Below, in pieces: positions 1,357-57,181 of a stretch of 64,000 nucleotides of DNA. The notes beneath the pieces are model-generated. The model saw only the letters and a program-made list of their open reading frames with translations. It was not told where the DNA came from and ran no database searches. Each line of letters opens with the position of its first letter. Position 1 is the first letter of the stretch. The position numbers and the translations under genes were made by a program. The DNA is taken from NCBI RefSeq assembly GCF_029581395.1, contig NZ_CP121113.1, positions 1,732,001 to 1,796,000 on the forward strand, given 5' to 3'. Origin of the DNA: Roseinatronobacter sp. S2 (GTDB lineage Bacteria; Pseudomonadota; Alphaproteobacteria; Rhodobacterales; Rhodobacteraceae).

Positions 1357-1482
1357 ATCGGTGGGCCGGGGTCTGCCGATCCGACATTATAAGAATGCAG
1401 TTTATGCAGGCTGAATATCCCTTACTTCAATGGCTTGGCCTGCCATCAGCCAAATCGGCAGGCCGCAGGACGGCCCACCGAT
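1357..1482. repeat. Dispersed intergenic repeat, copy A (core about 126 bp)
   Basis: The core begins ATCGGTGGGCCGGGGTCTGC and ends with GGCCCACCGAT. The two ends form an imperfect inverted repeat: ATCGGTGGGCCG leads inward to CTGCCGAT on both sides, with about five extra bases on one side. The centre holds TATGCAG-like palindromic bits. An inverted copy lies at 43325-43449 with roughly nine in ten bases identical, and a partial copy at 57034-57181. Similarity to copy B continues to about 1522 (CCCTTTGCTCCGCGCC). Like the other copies it sits between two convergent genes. Short reading frames across it, such as one with ISQIGRPQDGPPMA, come from the repeat and are not treated as genes. Confidence 0.85.
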
Positions 1483-1564
1483 GGCGCGGCGGGCTGCGCC
1501 CTTTGCTCCGCGCCTTTGTGCGTCCCCTTTAGGCCACCCCCCCAAAAAACACGCCGGGCGCGGA

Positions 1565-2260
1565 TCACCCCTTTGGGATACTGACGGGCGGCGTATCGCC
1601 ACCATTGCGTGGCTTGCCTTTGCGTGTGTCAGGATACACCAGACCCGCTGAAATCACCAGTTTCGCGGCATCTTCGATCGACATGTCCAGCTCGATCACA
1701 TCTTCACGCGGCACAAACAGCAAGAACCCTGATGTCGGGTTCGGCGTGGTGGGCAGGAAGATCGACACCATATCGCCCTTGCCCGACAGGTGATCCCCGA
1801 TTTCCCCGCGCGTGGTTGTCGAAATGAACGCCATCGCCCATAGGCCGGGGCGCGGGTATTGCACCAGACAGGCGCGGTCAAATGTGGGGGCTGTGCGCGC
1901 CAAAATCGTGTCGGCGATCTGCTTGACTGCGTTATAGATGGACCGGATGATGGGCATCGCCTCGACAATGCGTTCGCCCCAGCCCACAAGCGTGCGCCCG
2001 ATCAGCCCTTTTGTGAAATAGCCCATCACCAGCGTAAAGATGACAAATACAATCACCCCCACACCGGGCACATCCAGCCCGACCATCGCCTGCGGGTGAA
2101 AACTGCGCGGGATCAGCGGCAGAACCAGCCCGTCAATCCATGTAATCACGTTCCAGACCAGCCAGATGGTCAGCACGCCGGGCGCGATCACGGCCAGACC
2201 GGCGATGAAATTGCCGCGAAGCGATGCGATCAGTCCGCGTTTGGTTGGGTCTTGGCTCAT
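1565..2260 (-). CDS. DUF502 family membrane protein
   Basis: The protein has 231 residues and no assigned biochemical function. The start MSQDPTKRG at 2260 is chosen over an upstream in-frame ATG at 2320 because the family begins shortly before the first membrane segment. Two hydrophobic segments are seen, around residues 15-40 (FIAGLAVIAPGVLTIWLVWN) and 65-92. They are followed by a conserved-looking soluble part with GWGERIVEAMPIIRSIYNAVKQ and later TPNPTSGFLLFVPREDV, both characteristic of DUF502. It converges on the patatin gene across repeat copy A and diverges from the aldehyde dehydrogenase remnant. Confidence 0.85.
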   Translation of the reverse strand: MSQDPTKRGLIASLRGNFIAGLAVIAPGVLTIWLVWNVITWIDGLVLPLIPRSFHPQAMVGLDVPGVGVIVFVIFTLVMGYFTKGLIGRTLVGWGERIVEAMPIIRSIYNAVKQIADTILARTAPTFDRACLVQYPRPGLWAMAFISTTTRGEIGDHLSGKGDMVSIFLPTTPNPTSGFLLFVPREDVIELDMSIEDAAKLVISAGLVYPDTRKGKPRNGGDTPPVSIPKG

Positions 2261-2430
2261 ACGATGTTTTCCGTTTTGCGCAGGTCCGGCATAGATGTGC
2301 CAGCCGCAACGCCTATGCAAGCGGCTTTGCGAAATTTACATCCCCGCGCTTGCGCAAATTACGACGGGCCACGTTTTGTGTATATAGTGAAGTCTGGCAG
2401 CAGGTGCCGCACCCTGCTAAGGACACCAGC

Positions 2431-2994
2431 ATGGATGAGGATTTCACTGAACGGCTTTTTACGCATTTTGTCGGCGGGGCTTGGCGGGCGCCTTTGGGGA
2501 CATACGCAATGCCCGTTACCTTGCAAGACGGCCATGTGGTCGGGCAGGTCATTGCCGCAGAGCAGGCGGATATTGCACGCCTGTGCCGAACCATGCGCGG
2601 TGCGGACCCCGCGGCACGAACGCGCTTTGCCACGCTGATTGCGCGGGCTGCGGATGATCTTGCGCGCGCACTTGCCGCGCAAGGCGCAAATGTCGGACAG
2701 ACCGCAATCGCGGCCATGTCAGGGGGTGTTTGTCATGACCATCGCGCAGGTGGCGCTCCGGTCTGTCTGTGCGCGTCAGTCGGGCACGATCCGATATGGT
2801 TCGGGCAACGCCTGGGCGAGGGGGTGTCGCGCGGCGTTGCCTATTGCCCGCCCCCGAACGAGGTTTTGTTTGCAACACTGTTGGCAGGCCTTGCTGCGCA
2901 AGCAGACCTGCCGCCGGGTGCGTTTAATTTACTGCACGGTGACAATGCGCGGACAAAAACACTCCTGACAAGCGCGGGTGTGCCATGTCTGTAG
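2431..2994 (+). pseudogene. Aldehyde dehydrogenase family remnant (internally deleted)
   Basis: The frame encodes 187 residues starting MDEDFTERLF. Residues 13-75 (FVGGAWRAPLG, then VIAAEQADIARLC) resemble the N-terminal arm of NAD-dependent aldehyde dehydrogenases. A later stretch, ADLPPGAFNLLHGD, resembles the region just after the cofactor-binding strands (GLPPGVxNVVxG). The normal family length is about 480 residues. The N/KP and ExxKPSE segments between these parts, the catalytic Glu and the catalytic Cys are all absent, and the middle (around GGAPVCLCASVGHD) does not resemble the family. I read this as a decayed gene with an internal deletion and lost C-terminal half. A short novel protein cannot be excluded. 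Confidence 0.55.
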
Positions 2995-3016
2995 CCGCGC
3001 AGTGCCGCAAGATATG

Positions 3017-3223
3017 CTACAGATACATCCGCGGTCCGATGACCTTTGCGGGAATATCCTTGCGTGTCAGGCCCATTTCAGCCAATTCTTCGTCGGACTT
3101 GCTGTTGTAGTAGCTGATGCGCTGATATGTGGGTGACATGGTTGCAAGACGCGTCACAAAAGCCAGTAGCTTTTTGCCGAATTCATTGCTGCCGCTCACT
3201 GCATTGGTTGTGATATTCGCCAT
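3017..3223 (-). CDS. DUF1127 small protein
   Basis: A 68-residue protein ending in the DUF1127 pattern (SDEELAEMGLTRKDIPAKVIG), in which an acidic helix ExLxxxGLxRxDI is diagnostic. Alphaproteobacterial DUF1127 proteins are small, basic and often linked to phosphate, carbon or RNA-level adaptation, but no single activity is established for this one. The ribosome site AAAGGG lies seven bases before the ATG. It is a single-gene unit that converges on the aldehyde dehydrogenase remnant and diverges from recA. Confidence 0.85.
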   Translation of the reverse strand: MANITTNAVSGSNEFGKKLLAFVTRLATMSPTYQRISYYNSKSDEELAEMGLTRKDIPAKVIGPRMYL

Positions 3224-3435
3224 TTGGAAACCCTTTGCTCAGGTGTTTCCCCCCATATGCAGGAACTTAGGTCAGAAATGCTGACTTTACCAGTGCGGCC
3301 TTGACAACCCCGCCTTGCGCTGCGCGCAACACTGTCTGACGTATGGCAGGTCAACGGATTGTTAACCAGTTTTCGCTAAGATCGCAGAGAGCGAGGCAAG
3401 AAAAGTTCTCGCTTTGTGCCTTAATTTGAATTATA

Positions 3436-3450
3436 GAACAATTAATGAAC
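3436..3450 (+). promoter_or_regulatory. LexA (SOS) box upstream of recA
   Basis: GAACAATTAATGAAC is an exact GAAC-N7-GAAC direct repeat, the operator described for LexA of Rhodobacter and other alphaproteobacteria (GTTC-N7-GTTC on the other strand). It overlaps the promoter region 50 bases before the recA start. A weaker element, GTTC-N7-GTGC, lies at 3405-3419. Confidence 0.85.
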
Positions 3451-3499
3451 AAACCTGCGATTGCCGTGCGCGGCGCGCTGTGGAATAAGGGGCGAAACA

Positions 3500-4567
3500 A
3501 TGGCTGTAGCGGATTTGCTGACAATGACTGACAAGCGGACGGCGGAAAAACAAAAGGCGCTTGATTCAGCGCTTGCCCAGATTGAACGCCAGTTTGGCAA
3601 AGGCTCGATCATGCGGCTGGGTGCTGACAGCCCGGTGACCGAGATTGAGTCAACCTCCACAGGGTCGCTGGGGCTGGATATTGCGCTTGGAATCGGTGGT
3701 TTGCCCAAAGGGCGCATTATCGAAATTTATGGTCCTGAAAGTTCGGGCAAAACCACGCTGACCCTGCATGCCGTTGCAGAAGAACAGAAAAAGGGCGGCA
3801 TTTGCGCCTTTGTGGACGCCGAACACGCGATGGACCCGCAATATGCGCGCAAACTTGGCGTGAATCTGGATGACCTGCTGATTTCCCAGCCCGATACGGG
3901 CGAACAGGCGCTTGAAATCGTCGATACGCTTGTGCGTTCGGGCGCGGTGTCGATGGTTGTGGTCGATTCGGTGGCGGCATTGACGCCAAAATCCGAACTT
4001 GAAGGCGATATGGGCGATTCGAATGTTGGCGTGCACGCACGGCTGATGTCGCAGGCCATGCGCAAACTGACGGGGTCGATTTCGCGGTCGAATTGCATGG
4101 TGATTTTCATCAACCAGATTCGCATGAAAATCGGCGTGATGTTTGGCAGCCCCGAAACCACGACGGGTGGCAATGCGCTGAAATTCTACGCATCCGTCCG
4201 GCTGGATATTCGCCGGATCGGCGCAATCAAGGACCGCGATGAAGTGGTCGGAAATCAAACCCGCGTCAAGGTTGTCAAGAACAAGGTCGCGCCCCCCTTC
4301 AAACAGGTGGAATTCGACATCATGTATGGTGAAGGCATTTCCAAAACCGGCGAATTGCTGGATCTGGGCGTCAAGGCGGGCGTGGTCGAGAAATCGGGTG
4401 CGTGGTATTCCTACGGCGATGAACGCATTGGGCAAGGGCGCGAGAATGCGAAGACCTTCCTGAAGGAAAACCCGCAACGCGCGCTGGAAATTGAAGACAA
4501 GATCCGTGCAGCCCATGGTCTGGACTTTCCCATGGCGGAAGGCGACGCATCCCTGACCGAGGATTAA
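3500..4567 (+). CDS. recA: Recombinase RecA
   Basis: RecA (355 residues) forms ATP-dependent filaments on single-stranded DNA for homologous repair and triggers LexA self-cleavage. Walker A GPESSGKT is at about residues 78-85, followed by [10 protein letters not shown] and the L2-region signature [14 protein letters not shown] plus [17 protein letters not shown]. The chosen ATG at 3500 has AAGGGGCG six bases upstream; an in-frame ATG at 3461 has no such site and would add a non-family extension. The C-terminal tail is acidic, as usual. A LexA box precedes the gene, and alaS follows on the same strand after 249 bases. Confidence 0.98.
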
Positions 4568-4816
4568 GCGGCTCAGGACTATATAATCCTGGGGTGTCTG
4601 TTTTCCGACAGGCGCCCGATGATATACTGAACAAGCCGGGGGTGTCCGGGATATATAGCCTTGTTCTTGCTCGAAAATCGGAACCGCGTTGTGCTTTTCA
4701 ACGGATATGGGCGCAGGACGACCCGTCAGATTACGGCTCAGGTGTGGACAGGCCCTGTCTGCGCGGATAAACGGGATTGAAACTTGTCCCGTCCCGCTTT
4801 CGCGCCGGAGTGAAAA
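4568..4816 (+). other. recA-alaS intergenic region with a possible alaS leader hairpin
   Basis: No gene is seen in these 249 bases. Several short inverted repeats are present: GACAGGCCCTGTC at about 4757-4769, and a hairpin at 4771-4792 with arms ACGGGA and TCCCGT around a ten-base loop. The hairpin ends 24 bases before the alaS start, so it could be a leader structure. No T-run terminator is obvious after recA. Confidence 0.4.
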
Positions 4817-7477
4817 ATGCCCAGTCTGAACGACATTCGCACGACTTTCCTTGATTATTTTGCCCGAAACGGTCACGCGGTGGTCGACAGCTCGCCGCTT
4901 GTGCCGCGCAACGACCCTACCTTGATGTTCACCAATTCGGGCATGGTTCAGTTCAAGAATATGTTCACCGGGTTGGAACAGCGCGATTATAACCGCGCCA
5001 CCACATCGCAAAAATGCGTGCGCGCGGGCGGCAAACATAATGATCTGGACAATGTCGGCTATACGGCGCGCCACCATACATTTTTCGAAATGTTGGGGAA
5101 TTTCAGTTTCGGGGATTACTTCAAGGCTGAAGCGATTCCATTTGCGTGGGAATTGCTGACCCGCGATTTTGACATTCCCAAGGACCGGCTTCTGGTCACG
5201 GTATATCATACCGATGATGAAGCCGCTGAAATGTGGAAAAAAGTGGCGGGCCTGCCCGATGACCGCATCATCCGTATTGCGACCGACGACAATTTCTGGC
5301 GCATGGGGCCAACCGGCCCTTGCGGCCCCTGCACCGAGATATTTTTTGACCATGGCCCCAGCATCTGGGGCGGCCCTCCGGGCAGTGCGGAAGAAGATGG
5401 TGATCGTTTCATTGAAATCTGGAATCTGGTCTTCATGCAGAACGAGCAGCATGACGATGGCCGCCTGACCGAATTGCCGCGACAGTCGATTGATACCGGC
5501 ATGGGGCTGGAACGGATTGGCGCATTGCTGCAAGGCAAGCATGACAATTACGACACCGACCTGATGCGCGCCTTGATCGAAGCGTCCTGCCACGCCACAA
5601 GTTCGGACCCCGATGGTCCGGGCAAGACCCATCACCGCGTGATTGCCGACCATTTGCGCGCCGTGTCCTTCCTTATTGCGGATGGGGTCATGCCCGCAAA
5701 TGACGGGCGTGGCTATGTGTTGCGCCGGATCATGCGCCGCGCCATGCGCCATGCCCATATGCTGGGCGCGCAAGACCCCGTTATGCACCGTCTTGTGCCC
5801 GCGCTGGTCAGCGCGATGGGCAGCCATTACACCGAATTGCGGGATGCGCAGGCCCTGATCACACAAACCCTGCACGCCGAGGAAACGCGTTTCCGGCAGA
5901 CACTGGACCGCGGCCTGAAGCTGCTGGATGCCGAGTTGGAGGGGCTGCCCGAAGGGACAACCCTGTCGGGGCAGGCCGCTTTCAAACTGTATGACACGTT
6001 CGGCTTTCCGCTGGACCTGACGCAGGACGCTTTGCGCGAACGTGGTCGCGCCGTGGATGTTGCGGGATTCGATGCCGCCATGTCAGAGCAAAAGGCCCGC
6101 GCCCGCGCCAGTTGGGCAGGATCAGGTGACGCGGCCGATGCGACCATCTGGTTCGATCTGGCCGACCGCTTCGGGACCAGCGAGTTTCTGGGTTATGATA
6201 TGGAAACGGCCGAAGGGCAGGTTCTGGCGCTTGTTGTGGACGGGGCAGAGGCAAAATCTGCCACGGGCGAGGTGCAGATCATCACCAACCAGACGCCATT
6301 TTACGCCGAATCCGGCGGGCAGGTGGGCGATACCGGTTTCATCCGGTCGGGCAGCGGCGTGGCTGAGGTGACAGACACACGCAAATCTGCCGGGCTTATC
6401 ATCCATTTTGTCAAAGTGACCGAGGGCGAGATTGTGACGGGCCAGCCCGTCAAGCTGGAGGTGGCGCATGCCCGCCGCAGCGCCATTCGCGCCAACCATT
6501 CCGCGACGCATTTGCTGCATGAAGCGCTGCGCCGCGCATTGGGGGACCATGTTGCGCAAAAAGGATCGCTGAACGCGGCGGAGCGGTTGCGGTTCGATTT
6601 CAGCCATGGTGCGGCCATTGGTGCAGACCAACTGGCCCAGATCGAGGCAGAGGTGAACGCGTTTATCCGGCAGAACACCCCTGTCGATACCCGCATCATG
6701 ACACCCGATGATGCCCGCGCGCTGGGGGCGCAGGCGCTGTTTGGCGAAAAATACGGCGACGAAGTGCGCGTGGTGTCGATGGGCAATCTTGCCGGTTCGG
6801 GCAAGGGCCATGACGGCAATACCTATTCGCTGGAACTGTGCGGCGGCACCCATGTCGGGCGCACGGGCGATATTGGCGCGTTTGTCCTGCTGGGCGAGGG
6901 GGCGTCATCTGCCGGTGTGCGCCGCGTCGAGGGGCTGACAGGGCAGGCGGCGCTGGCCTATCTGCGCGCGCAGGATGCCCGTTTGTCGGAAATTGCAGGC
7001 GTGTTGAAAGCGCCCGCACAGGATGTAGGCGAGCGTGTCCGCACCCTGCTTGACGAACGCCGCGCCTTGCAAAACGAAATCGCACAGCTGAAACGTCAGG
7101 TGGCGATGGGCGGCAGCGGTGATGGTGGCGATGATGTGCGCGACGTTGCGGGGCTGAAAGTGATTGCCAAGGTCATGAACGGTGTTTCCGGCAAGGACCT
7201 GCCGTCGCTGATTGATGCGATGAAAGAAAAACTCGGGTCTGGTGTGGTTATTCTGATCGCGGATACAGGGGCCAAACCTGCGGTTGCCGCCGGTGTCACT
7301 GCGGATCTGGTTGAACGGCTTTCTGCCGTCGATCTGGTGCGCGAAGTTGTGGCCGGACTGGGCGGCAAGGGCGGTGGTGGCCGCCCTGACATGGCGCAAG
7401 GCGGCGGCGCCGATATTTCAAATGCGGACGCGGCGCTGGCCGCCGCACTGTCCCTGATAGAAAAGGAAACTGCATGA
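4817..7477 (+). CDS. alaS: Alanine--tRNA ligase
   Basis: At 886 residues this has the full length of bacterial AlaRS, which charges tRNA-Ala in the cytoplasm and edits mischarged Ser or Gly. The N-terminal class II catalytic domain shows [42 protein letters not shown] motifs (here [10 protein letters not shown]) and GPCGPCTEI. The editing domain carries [11 protein letters not shown] near residue 561 and its partner [13 protein letters not shown] near 675, which together form the zinc site. The C-terminal DHHA1-type glycine-rich region closes the protein. The stop overlaps the next start by four bases, implying translational coupling. Confidence 0.98.
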
Positions 7478-7767
7478 GCGCGCTTTGGATTGCACATGTC
7501 GAAGTAACCGACGCGGACGCCTATGGCGAATACGCCAAACGCGCGACAGGGGCCATCGCGGCACATGGTGGCGTGTTTATCGCGCGGGCGGGACGCTACG
7601 TTCAGCTTGAAGGGCGCGAACGCGCGCGCAATGTCGTCGCGCGCTTCCCATCCGTGGAAGATGCCGTTGCCTGCTATAATTCGCCCGAATATCAAGAAGC
7701 GCTTGGCTTTGCCAAAGGGGCCGCAGAACGCGATCTGGTTATCGTCGAGGAAGTCAGCCCCGGCTGA
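7474..7767 (+). CDS. DUF1330 domain protein
   Basis: A 97-residue ferredoxin-like dimeric alpha/beta-barrel protein. The family pattern is clear: [18 protein letters not shown] at the start, then [39 protein letters not shown] and RDLVIVEEV. Its function is unknown. Its ATG overlaps the alaS stop by four bases, so the two are probably co-transcribed. A short hairpin spanning the stop (7756-7775, arms AGCCCC and GGGGCT) may end the operon before the convergent truA gene. Confidence 0.88.
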
Positions 7768-7819
7768 ACGGGGCTGTCCGGTCAGGGCATGGGCCGTGCA
7801 TTCGGCCTGAAGGCGCCAT

Positions 7820-8590: not shown

Positions 8591-8626
8591 GAACGGGCAA
8601 TTAGCGCGGGCGCGCGGATTTGGCAA

Positions 8627-9478: not shown

Positions 9479-9592
9479 GCTGTCAGTATTGATCCAAGCG
9501 CCGCGGCACTGCAAGGGTTGGGCGCGGTATTTTCGCACTGGCGGGGCGCGGCGGGTGCTGGCAATGTGGCGAAAACTGAGAAGGTGCCATCC

Positions 9593-10048: not shown

Positions 10049-10107
10049 AACAGATTTATGACGCGGACAGGCCGGACACACACGATGGCCGCTGAATCTG
10101 GTGTGAT

Positions 10108-10121
10108 TTGATCAATATCAA
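10108..10121 (+). promoter_or_regulatory. FNR/FnrL-type box in the ppk2 promoter
   Basis: TTGATCAATATCAA matches the FNR-family consensus TTGAT-N4-ATCAA exactly. A -10-like CATGAT lies at 10144-10149, which predicts a start near 10156. That places the box centre about 41-42 bases upstream, the position of a class II activating FNR site. The ppk2 start codon is at 10192. Confidence 0.75.
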
Positions 10122-10191
10122 AGACAGGTTTTCATCAATTTGCCATGATGCAACCTTGATATTTCGCCCAAACACAATTCAGGAGCAGTTA

Positions 10192-16173: not shown

Positions 16174-16244
16174 CATGGACCCGGTGCAAGTCCGGGTGGC
16201 TCTTCCGGCCGCTGATCCGCCGGATAACCTGAACAACCACCATG
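16174..16244 (+). ncRNA. Structured cis-regulatory RNA leader of sulP (candidate sul1-type RNA)
   Basis: Three helices can be drawn directly. An outer stem pairs CATGG (16174-16178) with CCATG (16240-16244). Inside it one hairpin pairs ACCCGG (16179-16184) with CCGGGT (16192-16197), and another pairs TCCGGC (16204-16209) with GCCGGA (16219-16224). This makes a three-way junction ending 49 bases before the sulP ATG. Alphaproteobacterial sulfate-transporter genes are known to carry a conserved leader called sul1 RNA. I propose this as a member on position and structure only, since the published consensus could not be compared here. Confidence 0.6.
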
Positions 16245-37197: not shown

Positions 37198-37581
37198 TCA
37201 GTCGATGTCGGTCGCATATCTTTGCAACACAACAAGCGGGACAATATCCAGCGTTTTCTGATGCGTTGATCTTAGGTTGACCAGCGGGGCCACGTTTTCT
37301 TCATGCGCCTGCAAGAAACGTGCGGCACACAGGCACCATTGATCCCCCGGTTTCAGCCCCGGAAAGGCATGTTCAGGGCGCGGTGTTGAAAGGTCATTGC
37401 CCAGATACTTGGAATAGGCCAGAAATTCCGCAGTCATTCTGGCACAGACCGTATGCCTGCCCTGATCCTGTTCGCAGGTGTCGCAGGCCCCGTTGCGGAA
37501 GAAACCGGTCATCGGGTCGCGTGAACACGGCTCCAGGGTGCCGCCCAGCACGTTTACCGATGGCTCCATTCTGATTGTCAT
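37198..37581 (-). CDS. DUF2237 family protein
   Basis: A 127-residue protein matching DUF2237 throughout: NVLGGTLEPCSRDPMTGFFR, GACDTCEQDQGRHTVCARMT, EFLAYSKYLGNDLSTPRPEH and FPGLKPGDQWCLCAARF. Several conserved cysteines suggest a metal or redox site, but the function is not established. The start at 37581 (MTIRMEP) gives the family N terminus. The DUF2332 gene lies upstream on the same strand. Confidence 0.92.
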   Translation of the reverse strand: MTIRMEPSVNVLGGTLEPCSRDPMTGFFRNGACDTCEQDQGRHTVCARMTAEFLAYSKYLGNDLSTPRPEHAFPGLKPGDQWCLCAARFLQAHEENVAPLVNLRSTHQKTLDIVPLVVLQRYATDID

Positions 37582-43139: not shown

Positions 43140-43242
43140 AGTATGTTGTTCAAAAGTGGGAACCGGTTTTGAGCTTCTCGAACATGCGAAATCAATAAGT
43201 TAGAGCATGTCTCGTGAATGCGCATGAACGTGATATGCTCTA
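43140..43242. repeat. Palindromic intergenic repeat resembling RIME-type elements
   Basis: The first half contains TCAAAA-GTGGGAACCGG-TTTTGA, an inverted repeat. The second half begins TAGAGCAT at 43201-43208 and ends ATGCTCTA at 43235-43242, with a CGT/ACG pair inside, forming a large hairpin. The motifs AAAAGTGGGAACCGGTTTT and ATGCGAAATCAATAAGTTAG closely resemble palindromic intergenic repeats widespread in alphaproteobacteria, particularly RIME-like elements of Rhizobiales. The family name is from memory and not verified. Confidence 0.6.
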
Positions 43243-43324
43243 ATCAGGTCAAAGCAATCTGGTTGCGGGATGGCCTGTAACCGATCGCGAAGGCGCGGAG
43301 CAAAGGGCGAAGCTGGCCCACGCC

Positions 43325-43449
43325 ATCGGCGGGCCGTCCTGCGGCCTGCCGATTTGGCTGATGGCACCCCAAGCCTTTGAACGCAGGAATATGCAGCCTG
43401 CATAAACTGCATTCCCATAACGTGGGATCGGCAGACCCCGGCCCACCGA
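43325..43449. repeat. Dispersed intergenic repeat, copy B (inverted relative to copy A)
   Basis: This copy carries the same core and imperfect inverted ends as copy A at 1357-1482, in the opposite orientation. It shares CAGCCAAATCGGCAGGCCGC on the minus strand and differs at scattered single bases. Beyond the core, similarity to copy A continues to about 43280, and similarity to copy C to about 43504. It lies between the GntR and ftsH genes, which converge. Confidence 0.85.
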
Positions 43450-43540
43450 CAGCGCGGACCTTGTCCAAGCACGAACACCCCTTCCGGCCAGAATTTAGAC
43501 CAGCCCGATTCCTGCACATGACCGCGCACTGCACCCAACA

Positions 43541-43569
43541 AAAAGCCCCGGCACAGGGCCGGGGCTTTT
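43541..43569 (-). terminator. Terminator after ftsH
   Basis: The arms AAAAGCCCCGGC and GCCGGGGCTTTT surround ACAGG. On the ftsH strand it ends with a T-run. It can also stop transcription from the other side. Confidence 0.88.
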
Positions 43570-43587
43570 GTCTTATATCGCAGGTAT

Positions 43588-45510
43588 TTACGCAGACGGT
43601 TCGGGTTCCATACCGTCCCCGCTTTCGTCGCCACGTTTGCGGCCACGCGTCTTGGGGATGGCCGCAACCGACGGGGTGCCGCTGCCGGGTGTGTCTGCAT
43701 CATCATCGCCGCGGTTCAAGGGTTCACCGCGCATGACGCGCGCGATTTCAGGCCCTGTCAGGGTCTCGTATTCCAGCAAGCCCTGCGCAAGGTTTTCCAG
43801 ATCATTGGCATGTTCGGTCAGGATTTTCTTGGCAGTGTCATAGCCTTCCTGAACCAGTTGCCGCACCTTGTCGTCGATCATCTTCTGGGTCATGCTGGAA
43901 TGGTTCGAACCACCCCCGTAAGCGCCCAGATAGCTTTGCTGTTCATTGGCGTAATCGACATACCCCAATTCAGGGTCGAAGCCGAATTGGGTGACCATGG
44001 CGCGCGCAATCTTGGTGACCTGCTGAATGTCGCTTGCCGCACCGGATGTGACCGCATCTTCCCCGAAAGTCAGTTCTTCAGCCACACGCCCACCCATCGC
44101 CATGGCGATCTTGGATTTGTATTTGCGATAGCTGACAGACAACTGATCGCGTTCGGGCAGCGACAGCACCAGACCCAGCGCGCGACCGCGCGGGATGATA
44201 GTTGCCTTGTGGATGGGGTCGTGTTCGGGCACATGCAGGCCCACGACCGCGTGACCGGCTTCGTGATAGGCGGTCAGTTTCTTCTCATCTTCGGACATGA
44301 CCATGGACCGGCGTTCGGCCCCCATCATGACCTTGTCCTTGGCCGACTCGAAGTCTTCCATGGTGACAAAGCGACGGTTTGAGCGCGCGCCCATCAATGC
44401 CGCTTCATTCACAAGGTTCGCCAGATCAGCACCCGAGAAGCCCGGTGTGCCGCGTGCGATGATGCGCAGATCCACATTCGGACCCAGCGGCACCTTGCGC
44501 GCATGCACGCCCAGGATACGCTCGCGCCCCTTGATGTCGGGGTTGGGCACCTGCACCTGACGGTCAAACCGGCCCGGACGCAGCAGCGCGGGGTCCAGCA
44601 CATCGGGGCGGTTGGTGGCCGCCACGATGATGATGCCCTCATTGGCTTCGAACCCGTCCATTTCGACCAGAAGCTGGTTCAGGGTCTGTTCGCGTTCGTC
44701 ATTGCCGCCGCCATAGCCCACGCCACGCGACCGGCCGACGGCGTCAATCTCGTCGATAAAGACAATGCAGGGGGCGTTTTTCTTGGCTTGCTCGAACATG
44801 TCACGCACACGGCTGGCACCGACACCCACGAACATTTCCACAAAATCGGACCCCGAAATCGTGAAGAAGGGCACGCCTGCTTCGCCTGCGATGGCGCGTG
44901 CAAGCAGCGTTTTACCGGTGCCGGGAGGGCCGACCAGAAGCGCGCCTTTGGGGATTTTGCCACCAAGGCGGCTGAATTTCTGGGGGTTGCGCAGAAACTC
45001 GACAATCTCTTCCAGCTCGTCCTTGGCTTCATCAATGCCCGCAACATCGTCAAATGTCACACGACCGCTTTTTTCGGTCAGCAGCTTGGCCTTGGATTTG
45101 CCAAACCCCATCGCGCCGCCTTTGCCACCGCCCTGCATGCGGTTCATGAAATAGATCCAGACGCCGATCAGCAGCAGGAATGGCAGCCACAGCATAAGCG
45201 TGGACAGGAAACCGGATTGCTGTTGGGGCCGTGCCTCGATGGGGATGCCCGCATCCAGCAGCCGATCAGTCAGGCCTGCGTCGTCTGGTCGCACGGTCGA
45301 ATATTGCTGGCCGTCACTGCCCACGAACACAATGCGTTCGCCATCAATGGTAACCCTGCTGACAGTGCCCGAATCGACCCGCTGGACGAAATCAGAATAA
45401 TTCACGCTGCGCGCTGATGATGTGCCCTGATTGTTGCTGAACATGTTGAAAAGCATGATCATCAACAAAAACAGCACGATCCAGAAAGCGAAATTCCGTG
45501 CGTTGCCCAC
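43588..45510 (-). CDS. ftsH: ATP-dependent zinc metalloprotease FtsH
   Basis: FtsH (640 residues) is a hexameric membrane protease that degrades unfolded membrane proteins and regulators such as sigma-32 and LpxC. Two membrane helices (residues 8-24 and 102-122) flank a periplasmic domain. Walker A is GPPGTGKT (194-201), Walker [10 protein letters not shown], and [12 protein letters not shown]. The zinc motif is HEAGH (416-420). The C-terminal tail is acidic and Gly/Asp-rich. The start follows AAAGGAGACGCCC. It ends the tol-pal-tilS-ftsH gene line. Confidence 0.97.
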
Positions 45511-49699: not shown

Positions 49700-50922
49700 C
49701 TGAGTCTCATGCCTTCGGGGTTGAATGTAATCTCTATATCACGCCACGCGTCATATTGCTCGGGGGGAAGGCCATATCCGTCCCCTGCACAGCGAATGAT
49801 TGCGCGGCGCGCCACTTCGAATGCCTGATTGACCGCCGCTTCCGACCCGCCAGATGCGCCCACGACGCGAATCGTGCCCTGTTCGGGCATGGCAGACGGG
49901 GTCATCGAAAAGCCGACTGTCACGGTGACTTGCAGCGCTTCGGTCGACAGCGACACAATATTCCAGCATTGCTGGATTGCCAGACGCAGCGCATCGGCCT
50001 GACTGGCCGACAGGCCGGCACTGACGGGGGCTGACGGTGCGGCGCTTTCGGCCAGGGCGGCCGCCAGCGCATCATTGATGGCATCCGCAGGCGCGTCTGC
50101 GGGTTCGGGGTCGGGTTGTGGTGTCGGCGTTGGTGTAGGTGTCGGTTCGGGCGTGGGGTCGGGTGCCGCGGCTGTTTGCGCGGGTTCCGGTTCCGGCGCG
50201 GGCGTCGGGCGGTCGGGCCGCGGGCGCGGGCGCTGGCTGATGTTGGGGGCCGCTGCCGCGCGTTCGGTCGAACTGTCGTCGGTTTCGGTCGCTTCGGTCA
50301 CGATTTCGGTCGTGGCTTCGGGCGGCGCGGTTTCCGGCTGCTCTTCTACCGGCGCGGATTGTTCGTCACCCGGATCGGGTGTTGTTGCCGGTTGCGCGGC
50401 CAGATCTGTCTGCGCGTCCTCGGGCGGGGCTTCGGTGGGGGCAGGGGCCACGCGGTCCACAGGACGCGGGCGCGGGCGCTGACTGGCCCCCGGTGTGGTT
50501 TGTGGCGAAAAGATCACCCCTGTTGACGGTGCGGCAGGTTCCGGTTCGGGTTGGGGGGCCGGTTCTGGTGTCGGTGTCGGTTCTGGTGTCGGTGGCGGCG
50601 GTGTTGGTTCCGGTGCGGGTTCGGGTGTGGGTTGCGGTGTAATCGGTTCGGGTGCCGAAATTTCTGGCTCCGGTGCGGGGGCTGGCTGCGGTTCGGGTTC
50701 GGGTTCCGGCGCAGGTGGTGGCGGGGCACTTGCGGGCGCGGACAGTGCCGCGAATTCTTCTGATGAAATCAGCGCAACATCGGTCACCGGAATGCTGGAC
50801 GCAGTGTCGGGGGCCTGAAACAGGTCGAACAGCATAACCCACGCGATCAGCGCAATATGTGCCCCGCCCGAGACTTTCTGCCCCGTGTCCAACCGTGATA
50901 TGATGTCAACAGCGACTGCCAT
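49696..50922 (-). CDS. tolA: TolA-like cell envelope protein with a long Pro/Glu-rich region
   Basis: The protein has 408 residues with an N-terminal membrane helix ([15 protein letters not shown], about residues 22-36). A long low-complexity stretch (about 65-300), dense in Pro, Glu, Ala and Thr with repeats such as [16 protein letters not shown], spans the periplasm. The C-terminal domain (about 315-408) shows [29 protein letters not shown] and [20 protein letters not shown], which is TolA/TonB-like. E. coli TolA uses an Ala/Lys-rich helix instead, so the central region differs in kind. Position between tolR and tolB supports the call. Confidence 0.85.
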
Positions 50923-50943
50923 GTGCCAGACCGGCTTTCTACA

Positions 50944-51414
50944 TCAGTTAGGCTGCCCGTCGAAGCGCGGGCCGCCTTGTTCGGTCACCAGACCGATATT
51001 GTTGAATCCCCCCGAATTCAGCGCGCCCATCACCTGAACGACACGTTCATAGGGAATGGACCCGTCCGCACGCAGATACACGCGGTTGTCACGCCGTTCG
51101 GCGGCAATCGCACGCAGTTGCGGGATCAGGTCATTCAGGCTGACCTCGGATGACATGATCATCACCGTCCCATCGGTGCTAAGGGTGACTGACAGCGGCT
51201 CTTCCTGTTCGGCAGGCAAGGCGCCCGCCGATGTGCGCGGCAATTCCACCGGCACGCCGACAGTCAGCATGGGTGCAGCGACCATGAAGATGATCAGCAA
51301 CACCAGCATCACATCCACAAAGGGGGTGACGTTGATTTCGGACATGCGCGCGGCCCCGCCGCGGCGTCTGCGCCGCCCCGTCCCGCCGCCTTTTTTCAGA
51401 AACTGCGCACCCAT
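50944..51414 (-). CDS. tolR: Tol-Pal system protein TolR
   Basis: A 156-residue ExbD/TolR protein with one membrane helix (VTPFVDVMLVLLIIFMVAAP) holding the conserved ion-path Asp. The periplasmic domain includes DGTVMIMSSEVSLNDLIPQL and YLRADGSIPYERVVQVMGAL. It has a basic, glycine-rich N terminus (GGGTGRRRRRGGAARM). It works with TolQ to use the proton motive force on TolA. It is three bases downstream of tolQ. Confidence 0.95.
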   Translation of the reverse strand: MGAQFLKKGGGTGRRRRRGGAARMSEINVTPFVDVMLVLLIIFMVAAPMLTVGVPVELPRTSAGALPAEQEEPLSVTLSTDGTVMIMSSEVSLNDLIPQLRAIAAERRDNRVYLRADGSIPYERVVQVMGALNSGGFNNIGLVTEQGGPRFDGQPN

Positions 51415-51417
51415 GGA

Positions 51418-52116
51418 TCAGGCTGCGTCCATCTGGCGCGACAGGATGGTGTTGAACTCGTCCGCGAAGGCTTCATATCCCGAAATAATCTCGTCTGAAT
51501 CATCGGTCAGTTTGTTGTAGAAGATCGTTGCGGGAATAGCGGCCAGCAGGCCTAGCCCTGTGGCCAGAAGTGCTTCGGCAATGCCGGGGGCGACAACGGC
51601 CAGATTGGTGGATTGCGCCAGCGCGATTTCCTCAAACGCGTGCTTGATCCCCCAGACCGTTCCAAACAACCCGATAAAGGGCGACGCCGACCCGACAGAG
51701 GCCAGAAAGGTAAGTCCCTGGGTCAGTTCGCGCGATTCCTTGCTGATGGCCACATCCATGGAACGGTCGATGCGCGCCACAGCGCCGGGAATAAGCGCCC
51801 CGTCCGCACGGTGCGAACGGCGCCATTCGGTCATCCCTGACGCGAACACCCGTTGCGGTGACGTGGCGGGTGCAGGGCCGATCTGGTCATACAGTTCGTC
51901 CAGCGGTTCACCCGACCAGAATGCGGCTTCAAATTCTTCGGCTTCCGCACGGGCACGCCGGTAGCGGATATGCTTTTGCACGATGATGCCCCATGACCAG
52001 AAAGAGGCAAGGATCAGGCTGATCATCACCAGTTGCACGGTCAGGGTGGCGCGGGCAAATAACGCAACCAGAGAAAAGTCGATCTCTTGCGTCACGCTCA
52101 GAGTTTGTGGGTCCAT
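51418..52116 (-). CDS. tolQ: Tol-Pal system protein TolQ
   Basis: TolQ (232 residues) has three membrane helices: one near residues 15-40 (LTVQLVMISLILASFWSWGI) and two toward the C terminus (TFLASVGSASPFIGLFGTVW and GIAEALLATGLGLLAAIPAT). The latter carry the MotA/ExbB motif. The start at 52116 is preferred; the in-frame ATG at 52167 lies in a charged stretch. The 100-base gap to ybgC probably holds the tolQ promoter. Confidence 0.95.
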   Translation of the reverse strand: MDPQTLSVTQEIDFSLVALFARATLTVQLVMISLILASFWSWGIIVQKHIRYRRARAEAEEFEAAFWSGEPLDELYDQIGPAPATSPQRVFASGMTEWRRSHRADGALIPGAVARIDRSMDVAISKESRELTQGLTFLASVGSASPFIGLFGTVWGIKHAFEEIALAQSTNLAVVAPGIAEALLATGLGLLAAIPATIFYNKLTDDSDEIISGYEAFADEFNTILSRQMDAA

Positions 52117-52219
52117 GGTCTGCTCACTCAAAATGCGCCGCTTCTCGGGCGGCTTGCTTTGACGCAAAGCATACAGGAATAAAAGCGCCTTACCAACACA
52201 AGCGCGTTATACCTTGGGT

Positions 52220-52624
52220 TTAATTTGTAACATTTTCGCCCAAATGGGCAAGCAACCGCGCAGGAAGCGGCTGCGGGCGGCCTGTATCGGCCAGACACAC
52301 CAGCGTGACCTGTGCTTCAAACAGCAATTTGGCGTCGCGCAGCACGCATTGGCGCAACTCCAGCCGCGCGCCGGAATGCGACACATAGGCTGTCGTGACA
52401 TCCAGCATATCATCGAAACGGGCAGGGGCGCGGTAATCGGCCACCACGCGGCGCACGGCGAACACACCGCCGCCATCGGCCTTCAGTTTCGCCTGATCGA
52501 TACCCAGATCACGCACCCATTCCGACCGGGCGCGTTCAATGAATTTCAGGTAATTCGCGTAATAGACAATGCCCGCTAGGTCAGTGTCTTCATAATAGAC
52601 GCGAAGGCGGAATGAATGCGGCAT
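52220..52624 (-). CDS. ybgC: Acyl-CoA thioesterase YbgC
   Basis: A 134-residue hotdog-fold thioesterase. YYEDTDLAGIVYYANYLKFI followed by ERARSEWVRDLG is the YbgC signature, including the catalytic Asp. RDAKLLFEAQVTLVCLADTG is the back strand. YbgC is regularly encoded in front of tolQ and is associated with acyl-ACP or phospholipid turnover near the envelope. Confidence 0.93.
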   Translation of the reverse strand: MPHSFRLRVYYEDTDLAGIVYYANYLKFIERARSEWVRDLGIDQAKLKADGGGVFAVRRVVADYRAPARFDDMLDVTTAYVSHSGARLELRQCVLRDAKLLFEAQVTLVCLADTGRPQPLPARLLAHLGENVTN

Positions 52625-52642
52625 TTTCCCTGCCTGTTGCGG

Positions 52643-53311
52643 TTAGCTTGCGGCCCAGTCGCGGGGGGCGCGCAAGAACCCCTCGACCGCATCAAGGGTT
52701 TCGGTGTCGAAATCGCCCCCGCGACGCGCTTCTGCCAGAACATCCCACCATGTGCACAGGTAGTGCAGTTTGACGCCATGTTCGGCCAGCCGGGGTTCGG
52801 TTTCGGGGAAGATGCCGTAATAGAAAATCACCGCCGTATGCGCACATTCTGCGCCTGTGTCGCGGATGGCGTCCACGAAACTAAGCTTTGATCCGCCATC
52901 GGTTGTCAGGTCTTCTACCAGCAGCACGCGCTGCCCTTCGGACATGGCCCCTTCAATGCGGGCGTTGCGCCCGTAGCCCTTGGGCTTCTTGCGCACATAG
53001 GTCATGGGCAGCGCCATGCGTTCGGCCACAAGTGCTGCAAAGGGAATGCCCGCCGTTTCGCCGCCTGCGATGTTGTCAAATGCCTCAAGTCCTGCATCTT
53101 CCAACACACGGCAGGTCAGAAAATCCATCAGCGCGCTGCGAATGCGCGCAAAGCTGATCAGCTTGCGGCAGTCAATATAGGTGGGCGCCTGCAATCCGCT
53201 GGCAAATGTGAAGGGTTCGCGCGCATTGAAATGCACGGCCTTGATGTCCAGCAGCATGCGTGCGGTCAGGCGGGCAACAGTCTGGCGGTCGGGAAAACTG
53301 GAAGGGATCAT
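52643..53311 (-). CDS. pyrE: Orotate phosphoribosyltransferase
   Basis: PyrE (222 residues) joins orotate to PRPP to give orotidine 5'-phosphate in pyrimidine synthesis. The PRPP-binding loop [14 protein letters not shown] is plain, with [20 protein letters not shown] and [20 protein letters not shown] before it. The start at 53311 follows AAGGGATC-type bases (GGAAGGGATC). The pyrC gene lies nine bases upstream, so the pair is an operon. Confidence 0.96.
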
Positions 53312-53320
53312 ATGCGTGCC

Positions 53321-54358
53321 TTATTCTGCGACCCGCCAGAACAGCGGGAAACCGGGGTCAAAGACCGTGACCGGCCCGGTGCCGGTGTCGATCCTGGCGG
53401 GATAGGTGACGGGGGTATCGCCGCGTTCCAGCGTCAATGTGCTGTCATTGACGGGCAGGCCGTAGAATGCCGGACCATTGCGCGAGGCGAACCCTTCAAG
53501 CTTGTCCAATGCGCCCGCATCTTCAAACACATGGGCCAGAATGGACATTGTGTTTGTCGCCGTAAAACAGCCCGCGCAGCCGCAGGCGGATTCTTTGGCG
53601 TCATCCGTGTGGGGGGCGCTGTCAGTGCCAAGGAAAAACCGCGCATCGCCAGACGTGGCAGCCCCCACCAGTGCCAGCCGGTGGCTTTCGCGTTTGGCCA
53701 CGGGCAGGCAATAGTAATGCGGCTTGATCCCGCCCACCAGAATATGATTGCGGTTGATCACCAGATGATGGGTCGTGATTGTAGCCCCCAGATTTTCCGG
53801 CTGGCTTTGGACATAGGCCACAGCATTGGCGGTGGTGATATGCTCCATCACGACACGCAGTTCAGGCGTTGCGCGGCGGATCGGGTCCAGCACACGGTCG
53901 ATGAACACGGCTTCGCGGTCGAAAATGTCAATTGCGGGGTCGGTCACCTCGCCATGTGTCAGCAGGGGAATGCCCGCCTGCGCCATGGCGTCCAGCACAG
54001 GGCGCACGCGGTCGAAATTCTGCACGCCCGATGCCGAATTCGTGGTGGCGCCCGCAGGATACAGCTTGACCGCCGTGATGATGCCTGCCGCATGGGCGGC
54101 AACCACATCTGCGGGGTCCGTCTGCTCGGTCAGGTATAAGGTCATCAGCGGGGTGAAGCTGCTGCCCGTCACGGTGTTGATGCGCGTCCGGTAGGCGCTG
54201 GCCTGCGCGCCGGTCACCACCGGCGGCACCAGATTGGGCATGATGATAGCGCGCGCAAAATGGCGGGCGGTTTCAGGGGCCACGGCCTGCATCATCGCGC
54301 CATCGCGCAAATGCAGATGCCAGTCATCGGGGCGGGGTATGGTCAGGGTCTGCTGCAT
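53321..54358 (-). CDS. pyrC: Dihydroorotase
   Basis: A 345-residue amidohydrolase that cyclises carbamoyl aspartate. The first metal ligands are His14 and His16 in [23 protein letters not shown] contains the carbamylated Lys of the bimetallic site. [28 protein letters not shown] and [16 protein letters not shown] complete the type I (E. coli PyrC-like) pattern. It pairs with pyrE. Confidence 0.96.
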
Positions 54359-54452
54359 GCATGTTCCCTAGCCAAAACCCGCAGCCAGTTCCAGCCCGAA
54401 TGCGCAGGTCAGTGCGGGATTTTGCGGGGCTGCGGAATTGGCAGGCAGGCCG

Positions 54453-55457
54453 TCAGCGCGACAATTGCTTTTCGGCCTTGCTCAGGCATTTGCGCAGCTT
54501 GCGGCTGTCGGATTGCGCCAGCGCGTGGCGCGCGGCCGCAAGTGTCAGTGCGGGATGGCGGCCCAGTTTGGCACAACGTCTGGTCAGGCGTTCCAGATAG
54601 GCCCCGTCATTGCGCCTTGCGCGCATCAGGGTGTGAAACACCGCTGGCGTCAGTTTCCCCTGCGCGGCGGCGTCGATCATGGGGGCCAACGCCCCCATCC
54701 GCGCCAGTGCGGCGGCCGTGTCCCGGCCCAGATCGGGGCTGCGCAACACGGTCACGAAGGGGCGGCGGAACAGGGTTGCGTGCATCATGTCCAGCCTGCG
54801 CGCGGGATCATGCACGATAAACGCGCCCCGTCCCCCGTCCAGCATGGCGGGCGCAAACCCGAAACGGCTGGTGAAATCCAGCCGTCGCGCATGCATGTAG
54901 CGGCGGTCCCAGCCTGCGATCGTGGGATCAAGTGTCGCTTGTGGGGCAATCGCCAGCACCGTGGAACCGGCAGCCGCCAGACTATAGGCGCAGGCGGCAT
55001 AGCCACACATCCCTTCACCGTAAAACAACACACGGCGGAACCCGTCAAAAAAGCCCGCGTCAATCTGGGCGTCGAAATAGTCGGCAATTTCGGGATCGCG
55101 GAACCAGCGCGGCTGGCGGGCCATGATGGACAGGCTGGACCAGCCCCGCGCCTGTGCATGCGTAAACCCCATTGGCCGGTGATCGGGCTGGCGTTCGCGG
55201 ATTGTGGCGATGGTTTCGAATGTTACCAGCAAGGTGTCGTCACCATCGCTGTAGAGCGCTGCATGATGTGCGCCAAGCGGGGAAAACCCGCCATCGACGG
55301 GATCAAGCTCGTCGCCGATTTCATCAAGGCGTGCCAGCCACTCTGCCTCGGTCCCGGCGCTTGCAAGGTCAATCTCCTGTGCAACACGCGACACGGGCGT
55401 GTCGGTTGCTTCAGGCGTGTCAATAGTTTGCAGGTCGTCTTGATACTGGTCTGACAT
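54453..55457 (-). CDS. Unknown protein with a hydrolase-like central segment
   Basis: A 334-residue cytoplasmic protein. Residues 145-180 (RRVLFYGEGMCGYAACAYSL, then AAAGSTVLAIAPQATLDP) resemble the nucleophile elbow and following strand of an alpha/beta hydrolase of the type Y-G-S-S-M-G-G-Y-A-A. The expected nucleophile Ser is Gly here, so a catalytic triad cannot be assigned. The N terminus is acidic and the C terminus basic and helical (ALTLAAARHALAQSDSRKLR). Similar proteins are widespread in Rhodobacteraceae, sometimes with a sulfate-reductase label that I cannot support. It lies upstream of pyrC on the same strand. Confidence 0.5.
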   Translation of the reverse strand: MSDQYQDDLQTIDTPEATDTPVSRVAQEIDLASAGTEAEWLARLDEIGDELDPVDGGFSPLGAHHAALYSDGDDTLLVTFETIATIRERQPDHRPMGFTHAQARGWSSLSIMARQPRWFRDPEIADYFDAQIDAGFFDGFRRVLFYGEGMCGYAACAYSLAAAGSTVLAIAPQATLDPTIAGWDRRYMHARRLDFTSRFGFAPAMLDGGRGAFIVHDPARRLDMMHATLFRRPFVTVLRSPDLGRDTAAALARMGALAPMIDAAAQGKLTPAVFHTLMRARRNDGAYLERLTRRCAKLGRHPALTLAAARHALAQSDSRKLRKCLSKAEKQLSR

Positions 55458-55934
55458 ATCTGCTTTTTCCGCAAATCAGGGGGCATGGTGCATACCCTTC
55501 ACGATAGGCGAAACACAGTTACTTCAAAAGCCCTTGCAGGTAATTTTGCGCGTGTCTGCGTAAATGACCTGCGGTCTGTTGTCCGGTTGGGCGACAATGC
55601 GGGTTGCATGCGGTCATTGCGCAATAGGTAGAAACAAAATGAGTTTGTGCAGGGAAAGGTATTTTTCATCACGAACCGGATTGCAGCTTCGACAATCCCT
55701 CAATAGGGTGGCGCGGTGTTGGTTTGAATGCCCCTGTCCTGATCGTGCTTTCGTTGGTTATGCCACATAGCCAGCCCGGATTTGGGTAAATTTCTGTTGT
55801 ATCCTTTTATAAAATACGGCTTGTTGCAGCGGCTGGGCAGGGATGGCAGTGATGGTCTGTCTGCCGGATCGACATGCGTGTAGATCTGCGTTCCGGCCTG
55901 TAACTGAGCAGCGTGAACCGAAACGGGAGGCTAA
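55458..55934. other. Divergent region without a recognised gene
   Basis: No convincing gene is seen in these 477 bases. It must hold the promoters of the two divergent genes on either side. A short AT-rich palindrome, TTTTATAAAA, occurs near 55806-55815 and may be part of the plus-strand promoter. Reading frames here are short, and the largest belongs to the antisense of the following gene. Confidence 0.4.
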
Positions 55935-56957
55935 ATGAGGCAACAGGATATGCCGTTGCGTGTCTTGCGCCAACTGGGCAAACAGGTTTTGTTTGGTGCG
56001 CTGGTTGTCGCTTGGGCCGGATATGGCACTGCCGCAGATGCAGAAGCGATACCCGGCAGGTCCGACCCGGATTTTCACAGCGCTTTTGAAAACTGGCTGA
56101 GTGATGAAGAGCAGGACGCCTTGCCCGCACTTTCGCGGCTGGCCCATGACGGCAATGGTGCGGCGCGCGTCTTGCTGGGCGTGATCGACAAGAAATCCGC
56201 CTTGCAGGGGCCATGGGTCACGGCATTGTCCCGACAAGACAGAATTTCCGTTTTGCGCGCGCCCGGTGGCCTGTCCGGCCAGAACTGGATGACGATTGCC
56301 GCCCCCGATATTGCCTATGCACAGCTTTGGAGCAGGCTTTGGCATGTGGATGGTGGTCTGGATATCGCGCAGGGTTTCGCGGAGAGAGGGGATACCCGCG
56401 CTGTGCGCGAAGCCTTGCTGGTGATCGCCAGCCGACGCGAAAGCGGCTTTCCCGCTGAACTTCTGGCCGCAGAGTGGTTCCCCGCGACATTGTCCTATCT
56501 GGCGGCAGACTGGCCTGCCTTGCCCGATGATCTTGGCACCGGCGATCAAGGTGATCCGCAGTTGCGTATGTCGGGGCAATACGTTGATGATGCTGATCTG
56601 CGCGGTTGGCTGGGGCAGTCCGATCTGGGTGCCCCTTTGCGCAATGTGTGTGATCAGCAATGCCCAAGTGATCCGTCGGAATGCAGCCTTGCATTGTATA
56701 AGGGTCTGGGCAGCTACCCCGCGCTTGCCATGCTGGGCAGTCCGGTGCCTGATCTGGTGTCATCAGATGAATTTTACCAATCGCCACGCGGGCGCACCAG
56801 CCTTGCGCGCCGTATCATGCTGACCCGTTCGGCGCGGATGCGTGAAGCGGATCTTGCGCGGTTGGGCGATGTCAGCACCTGTGCGGCGGATTGGTTGCGC
56901 GACGAATATGGCCGCTACGCATATTCCCTGCCGACTGTGCCTTTATCCCCGCAATAG
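55935..56957 (+). CDS. Secreted protein of unknown function
   Basis: A 340-residue protein with an N-terminal hydrophobic segment (residues 15-37, QVLFGALVVAWAGYGTAADA) that looks like a signal peptide. The mature part begins HSAFENWLSDEEQDALPALS and RLAHDGNGAARVLLGVID, which resembles a single Sel1/TPR-like helix pair. Two Cys pairs (NVCDQQCPSD and SECSLA) suggest disulphides in the periplasm. The start follows CGGGAGGC. No family was recognised. It stands alone, with a repeat copy between it and rsmA. Confidence 0.55.
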   Translation: MRQQDMPLRVLRQLGKQVLFGALVVAWAGYGTAADAEAIPGRSDPDFHSAFENWLSDEEQDALPALSRLAHDGNGAARVLLGVIDKKSALQGPWVTALSRQDRISVLRAPGGLSGQNWMTIAAPDIAYAQLWSRLWHVDGGLDIAQGFAERGDTRAVREALLVIASRRESGFPAELLAAEWFPATLSYLAADWPALPDDLGTGDQGDPQLRMSGQYVDDADLRGWLGQSDLGAPLRNVCDQQCPSDPSECSLALYKGLGSYPALAMLGSPVPDLVSSDEFYQSPRGRTSLARRIMLTRSARMREADLARLGDVSTCAADWLRDEYGRYAYSLPTVPLSPQ

Positions 56958-57033
56958 GCCCCCCGGGGGGGGGCGCACCGCCGATATGTCCGGTGGGTGC
57001 TGGCGCGAAGCGCGCGTTGGACTTTCCCAAGGC

Positions 57034-57181
57034 GCTGATGGCAGGCCAAGCCTTTGAACGCAGGAGTGTGCAGCCTGCAAAAAGTGAACTTCACCAACGC
57101 GGGATCGGCAGTCCCCGGCCCACCGCTGGCGCGGGCTTTGTCCATGCCCCAACGTCCCCTTCGGCCCTGAATGAACCAGCC
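57034..57181. repeat. Dispersed intergenic repeat, copy C (partial, more diverged)
   Basis: The copy shares GCTGATGGCA, AAGCCTTTGAACGCAGGA and GGGATCGGCAG-CCCCGGCCC with copy B in the same orientation. The inverted end found at the other side of copies A and B is replaced by unrelated sequence. On the right, similarity to copy B runs through TTTGTCC to ACCAGCC at about 57181. It lies between the secreted protein gene and rsmA, which converge. Confidence 0.75.

Follow-up and report, generated by a model that had tools for sequence, protein, structure and literature searches.

Large structured intergenic repeats of Rhodobacteraceae that probably recombine with one another at fixed sites

The window analysed here, a stretch of 64,000 nucleotides from Roseinatronobacter sp. 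S2 (G000:C1:1732001-1796000, where G000 is the window's genome of 4.45 Mb in six contigs), carries three copies, A, B and C, of an intergenic repeat. We think it rather probable that they belong to a new family of large structured intergenic repeats, resembling repetitive extragenic palindromic (REP) sequences and miniature inverted-repeat transposable elements (MITEs), whose copies recombine with one another at fixed sites. This reading is built on what sequence comparison gives, namely the copy number, base pairing and distribution of the family, its preference for gene 3' ends within the genus and the persistence of its sites while their occupants are replaced.

Results

An earlier note on this DNA had described a three-copy repeat with a shared core of about 125 bp and imperfect inverted ends. 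All three copies were found at the places given there, and the repeat is real but understated, as the genome holds at least 112 copies. Copies A and B are 88.7% identical across 168 bp (E 6e-58), B and C 80.6% across 139 bp, and A and C 77.6% across 116 bp. A search of G000 with the right-arm 23-mer at up to 3 mismatches gave 114 matches and none for the reversed control, so that the family is far beyond chance; the left-arm pattern gave 86 and again none for its reversed control. The arm matches listed, which for the right arm are among the 114, merge into at least 110 places, and a profile scan of the stretches taken around them found 112 copies, 104 of them near full length, with 110 on the main replicon (C1) and 2 on C3. 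Further copies, for which the earlier note had proposed a search, are thus present genome-wide, and they are also found in related genomes. Phage records gave no match to copy A, and literature searches, with most subscription journals outside their reach, found no publication on this repeat.

A core is indeed common to the copies, but the unit is longer. In G000 it consists of a 166-nt core, which combines two complementary arms with a loop carrying a CACTTTATG-type motif and with a 3' hairpin, flanked by outer inverted ends TGGCC...GGCCA; the inverted ends seen earlier in A and B exist, but they are inner arms. Terminal inverted repeats, a criterion for MITEs, are present as TGGCC...GGCCA. 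The unit length of about 220-230 bp follows from the closest within-genome pairs, which are alike up to or near these outer ends: a 98.8% identical pair in G000 runs from TGGCC to GGCCA and another, 96.4% identical, from TGGCC to GGCC. These are two of the 10 closest G000 pairs, and both are bounded by TGGCC at one end and GGCC(A) at the other; the other listed pairs end within the unit, and a 99.4% pair within G012, a relative described below, extends slightly beyond both unit ends. Coupling between the outer module types (GAAG/TTTTG) was considered and found not convincing (15, 3, 14 and 10 among the 42 copies typed at both ends, with no formal test; 62 of the 104 copies lack a type for at least one end). 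In copy C, an internal deletion has removed most of the right arm and the P3 hairpin.

To follow individual sites, 99 elements of G012, a metagenome assembly of a relative, were compared with all 112 G000 copies. The G012 sample comprises 95 places among the matches listed of 113, with five near contig ends left out; the loci L287, L288 and L296 are close to contig ends. Both flanks were collinear for 73 of the 99 elements, which comprised 45 copies in the same orientation as in G000, 26 in the opposite orientation and 2 with no full copy at the G000 site. The flank identity at the 71 occupied sites had a median of 96.0% (range 87.8-98.1). Among the 45 same-orientation pairs, the ortholog was the best of the 112 copies in 23, which we regard as vertical, and had a rank number greater than 10 in 15, which look replaced. 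On the other hand, it was the best match in none of the 26 opposite pairs. The median spacer identity was 0.97 for vertical pairs but 0.73 for opposite and 0.72 for same-orientation replaced pairs, against 0.72 for random pairs; in the outer modules, opposite pairs were at random level and same-orientation replaced pairs in between. Since no opposite copy has its ortholog as best match and spacer identity is at random level, the sequences indicate that copies were not flipped in place and that other family members have taken over their sites, in either orientation; in-place inversion was rejected as the source of the opposite copies. The occupant has changed at 41 of 71 shared sites (48 with the ambiguous ones) while the flanks diverged by about 4%, and the direction of replacement is near random (26 opposite versus 15 same, p 0.12). 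A first pass at orthologous sites of bin.17, the same metagenome assembly as G012, gave 18 copies in the same and 7 in the opposite orientation, and the second relative HJB301 gave 5 opposite and 1 same.

At 38 of the 52 ends of opposite pairs, the distance between the core edge and the point where flank homology stops is 5-35 nt, and the homology often breaks off just inside TGGCCT. Where a G012 copy lacks a full partner, as two do, the G000 site holds remnants of the element and is not a clean empty site. The earlier note had proposed to look for target-site duplications, and one of these two remnant sites has a 10-bp direct repeat, which itself belongs to the element's sequence. In the first mapping, 26 of the 99 elements had one or no flank placed, and these were re-examined. 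In five of them the two flanks map to separate places in G000, and in one (L217) both map to a single place, with a partial copy in the gap. An inversion of about 7 kb (L202; G000 C1 about 2260.6k-2267.7k) is bounded by two of the five and lies between copies of opposite orientation, the outcome expected of crossover between copies. Copies are located at ends of rearrangements between the relatives.

Some further loci were noticed. L216, L224 and L239 are G012 copies with flanks at different G000 places; for L216, one of these places is in the window near 37,250, and G000 is without a copy there. Copies behind what seems to be the same gene have opposite orientation in L033 (G015) and L035 (G024); we take this gene to be superoxide-dismutase-like.

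With regard to gene context, the earlier note had placed the repeat only between convergent genes. This holds in the window, where all three copies have convergent flanks by our own gene caller (A, 1274+/1565-; B, 43134+/43588-; C, 56957+/57264-), but not in the genome, where 86 of the 112 copies are in convergent, 25 in tandem and 1 in divergent gaps. Gene pairs without a copy in the same stretches are 55 convergent, 510 tandem and 130 divergent. Because these stretches had been chosen around copies, an evenly spaced control of 20 stretches of 20 kb was also taken, in which a copy is present in 6 of 35 convergent, 1 of 253 tandem and 0 of 35 divergent pairs. The enrichment between convergent genes, which the earlier note had proposed to compare with chance, is clear in this control (6/35 versus 1/288 others, Fisher p 7e-6). 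Neither an even spread over all intergenic classes nor a lack of copies in related genomes, the two outcomes that would have spoken against the earlier note, was seen. Of the tandem copies, 24 of 25 in G000 and all 19 in G012 are closer to the stop of the upstream gene. G012 shows the same convergent bias, with 70 contexts convergent and 19 tandem (10 of the 99 have no assigned gene pair), and so do HJB301, with 9 convergent, 3 tandem and 1 divergent copies (2 of 15 without an assigned pair), and the Roseibaca and ZodW loci, with 12, 2 and 2 of 16. In the 29 loci from other genera, 9 are convergent, 16 tandem and 3 divergent, with 1 lacking a gene pair, so that there is no convergent bias, and only 10 of the 16 tandem copies are nearer the upstream stop.

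Copies are oriented nearly at random with respect to the neighbouring genes. The two orientations are equally frequent in convergent gaps of G000 (43 versus 43), and 25 of 65 tandem copies are co-directional with the genes (p 0.08, the G000 and G012 cases being partly orthologous). GC skew and strand counts, without a formal test, showed no evident bias relative to replication. The suggestion that the repeat is a transcription barrier finds no support in the sequence: in a scan of A, B and C, the only copies scanned, no intrinsic-terminator-like site, that is, a GC-rich hairpin followed by a T run, was predicted inside the units, and such sites near A and B fall outside them. No sigma-70-type promoter was found near A, B or C.

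The core has a conserved fold. RNA folding, as proposed in the earlier note, showed that copies A and B beat their shuffles on both strands (z -3.8 to -4.7), while copy C, whose arm is missing, folds no better than shuffles. P1 and P2 together form 28 pairs and make up a long stem in two parts, with a conserved motif at its apex; P3 is separate. For covariation, 37 sequences (9 from the window's genus and 28 from other genera, one per genome) were aligned with MAFFT without structure; they had been found with a model of the same structure, and the sample leans towards it. In this alignment 91.4% of cells are paired, versus 81.4% when shuffled and 30-46% with slid partners. Both sides have changed in 19 of 35 pairs (112 such cells versus 34.5 shuffled), and the covariation is 0.267 versus 0.100, with none of 500 shuffles as good. 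The stems are maintained by compensatory changes. Within G000, hairpin pair 182-188 occurs as GC and as CG in 51 copies each (of 104), a swap that need not mean many events because the copies are related, and the P1-end pair in own and related copies is C-G in 126, T-G in 41, A-T in 9, T-A in 8 and others in 5 of the 189 readable (60 of 249 copies being unreadable by pattern). The middle strand can instead pair with the 3' end (the outer part of P3); this alternative is 98.2% paired, and so the middle strand has two conserved partners. Half-compensated cells are G-U in 56 and A-C in 13 cases (54 versus 7 in P1 and P2), and this excess of G-U suggests that one strand is the folding one, as RNA or as single-stranded DNA.

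The covariance model R1, built from 58 sequences, matches 72 of 198 genomes of Rhodobacteraceae (nearly one genome per genus), and 15 of them have at least 14 matches. The model R2, built from the diverse 37-sequence alignment, matched 3 of 289 genomes drawn from the class, G000 and two weak ones, all of the same family; by listing order nearly all others in this draw are from other families (266 are not listed). As far as tested, the repeat family appears confined to Rhodobacteraceae. Named carriers are Roseinatronobacter, Roseibaca and plasmids of Pseudosulfitobacter and Salipiger, and no annotated feature lies under the listed matches on these plasmids, for which the gene table is incomplete. 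In Rfam 15, no family is over its gathering cut-off at the repeat, and 401 bases around copy A gave three weak matches far below the cut-offs.

A dependence on an enzyme was sought in the same genomes. G000 has a single partial Y1_Tnp match of 22.6 bits, under the cut-off, and none over it. A Y1 transposase match is present in 10 of the 72 genomes with the element (absent in 62) and a reverse transcriptase in 25 of the 72. Neither is significantly associated with the element over the 198 genomes (Fisher p 0.14 for Y1 and 0.10 for reverse transcriptase, where G000 is counted as positive for both although its Y1 match is under the cut-off), and 9 of the 15 genomes with at least 14 matches have neither. 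Mobilisation that needs one of these enzymes was rejected for lack of a significant association.

Table 1. Parts of the repeat copies in the window (window positions)
Feature	Position	Strand	Basis
Copy A, whole unit, TGGCC to GGCCA	1315..1536	+	letters; ends inferred from family comparison (as for B and C)
Copy A, 166-nt conserved core	1348..1513 (G000:C1:1733348-1733513)	+	model R1 match
Copy A, 5' outer module	1315..1347	+	
Copy A, left arm, 5' strand of stems P1/P2	1357..1381	+	
Copy A, apical-loop motif GCAGTTTATGCAGGC (CACTTTATGGC-type in other genera)	1397..1411	+	
Copy A, right arm, 3' strand of stems P2/P1	1453..1482	+	
Copy A, 3' hairpin P3; first strand also able to pair with left arm	1483..1514	+	
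Copy A, 3' outer module	1515..1536	+	
Copy B, whole unit, orientation opposite to A	43271..43490	-	
Copy C, unit, one outer end degenerate	about 57001..57166	-	

Near copy B, the open frames 43200-43706 (-, 168 aa) and 43377-43736 (+, 119 aa) enter or cross the unit and could be falsely annotated. A second, unrelated-looking MITE-like repeat with ends TAGAGCAT...ATGCTCTA lies at window 43201-43245 and on G000 C1 near 2388225, 2481391 and 2697284, and in G012 (L031) it adjoins the 3' outer module of a copy. The only Rfam match in the window is a sul1 RNA (RF03058) at 16174-16229 (E 3.2e-12).

Discussion

How could a site stay while its occupant changes? We propose that replacement would be ectopic recombination between copies, mostly conversion and sometimes crossover. 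Two copies would be able to pair in either register by means of their near-identical arms and inverted outer ends, and exchange would run out to the limit of shared sequence near TGGCC. It may start with breaks at the hairpin-prone palindrome, SbcCD being the usual hairpin nuclease. Recombination between copies would explain at once the replacement, the two orientations, the lack of in-place flips and the inversion of about 7 kb. Gene 3' ends would be places where units are tolerated, and the fold may be selected for the element's own copying or as RNA. The near-random orientation towards host genes speaks for a role in copying over a host RNA function, and a host function is putative and unproven.

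Several points weigh against this proposal. Conversion in the inverted register has only short homology at the outer ends, and a recombinase acting on the ends could leave similar traces. Exact TGGCC is present in the scanned window at only 24 of 52 opposite-pair ends (TGGCCT with up to one mismatch at 31 of 52). The main comparison uses a metagenome assembly; HJB301 is not titled as one, and its flank identity is 84%, so that only orientation is informative there. Both the HJB301 and the first-pass loci were picked by an exact 28-mer. Among the same-orientation pairs, 7 of 45 are ambiguous (rank 2-10) and were counted neither as vertical nor as replaced. Moreover, 20 of the 99 G012 elements have no partner in G000. 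Some of them may correspond to empty sites there, a class that is under-sampled because the stretches of this genome were selected around copies. The convergent bias seems to exceed what tolerance alone would give, and it is missing from the loci of other genera. The strand signal is also softer than its binomial p, as cells are not independent events: 27 of the 54 G-U cells of P1 and P2 fall in two pairs, P3 has no G-U excess, and within G000 16 pairs are richer in G-U and 13 in A-C, the excess sitting in few pairs.

A bolder version, which we hold only tentatively, is that the repeat is a selfish structured nucleic acid, a strand-specific RNA or single-stranded DNA, that is copied over resident copies at permanent docking sites without its own transposase. 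A pairing switch among the left arm, the middle strand and P3 might operate in it, and the hairpin would provoke breakage that other copies repair, so that occupants would turn over quickly at fixed sites. A rival explanation is a non-autonomous mobile element of the MITE or REPIN type, re-inserted at used sites by a putative transposase or recombinase whose target, in trans, would be either the inverted TGGCC ends or the hairpin in single-stranded form. The inverted ends, the strand-biased fold, the high copy number and the recent duplicates bounded by or near TGGCC would all suit such an element, and we nevertheless consider it unlikely: Y1_Tnp is not over the cut-off in G000 and has no significant association in the 198 genomes (other transposase families were not searched), both sites lacking a full copy hold remnants, and the 26 opposite pairs include no in-place flip, which would be expected of action on inverted ends.

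Another explanation gives the host a benefit, the repeat RNA insulating or ending convergent transcripts or protecting mRNA 3' ends, with selection keeping any copy at each site. Such a role fits the excess of convergent gaps, the closeness of tandem copies to the upstream stop, the strong fold and the sites that remain occupied while their occupants change. We regard it as improbable, since A, B and C contain no intrinsic-terminator-like site, gene orientation is near random although the G-U signal favours one strand, and most convergent pairs of the even control (all but 6 of 35) have no copy. Repeats are assembly hazards, and with a metagenome assembly as the main relative one may ask if misassembly created the orientation changes and if the fold reflects only shared ancestry. 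This seems very improbable: 71 occupied pairs are collinear on both flanks and each error would have to combine two wrong joins in a span of about 250 bp, vertical descent is seen at 23 sites, opposite copies occur in HJB301 too, and sliding the partners destroys much of the pairing.

The results point to a large conserved repeat family that has no Rfam entry and was not found in the literature searches. Its shared sites may also document ectopic exchange in bacteria with unusual clarity, in a natural setting. With such a record one can test whether transposition or recombination between copies maintains high-copy intergenic repeats, and why gene 3' ends are favoured.

Finally, the family can be set beside known repeats. 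The earlier note had suggested a MITE-like or REP-type element, and the many intergenic, palindromic copies located 3' of genes agree with this, but the architecture is not that of the GTAG or CGTC REPs and no Y1 is over the cut-off in G000. According to PMC3733652, elements of the GTAG and CGTC super-families are 20-40 bp long with a terminal tetranucleotide tag, CGTC stems have 8-9 bp, REP stems contain G-T pairs, REPs occur mainly between unidirectional and convergent genes near 3' ends, and CGTC families occur in alpha-proteobacteria; its main text is without the six Rhodobacteraceae genus-name fragments sought. On this description our repeats are similar in being high-copy intergenic palindromes in convergent or unidirectional gaps near gene 3' ends and in having G-T pairs in their stems, and differ in their 166-nt core, 220-230-bp unit and 28 pairs in P1 and P2. 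REPINs, according to PMC3116915, are proposed to be mobilised by the transposase RAYT; 71 bp separate the two invariant 16-mers in a GI doublet, and excision is reported. They share two inverted palindromic arms around a spacer, a long hairpin and many copies, whereas the family here is far longer, is exchanged at fixed sites and shows no requirement for a Y1 transposase. ERIC sequences, or intergenic repeat units, are imperfect palindromes of about 126 bp between genes and are enterobacterial; by this description they are similar as intergenic imperfect palindromes but belong to other bacteria. Bru-RS of Brucella, RPE of Rickettsia and the rhizobial RIME are palindromic repeats of alpha-proteobacteria, likewise compared by description only, and the R2 matches in the 289 class genomes were only in Rhodobacteraceae. 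The names Bru-RS and RPE occur in PMC2267715 and PMC3733652. Thus, the family is REP-, ERIC- or MITE-like in its working, yet it fails the tested defining features of CGTC and GTAG REPs and of RAYT-driven REPINs.

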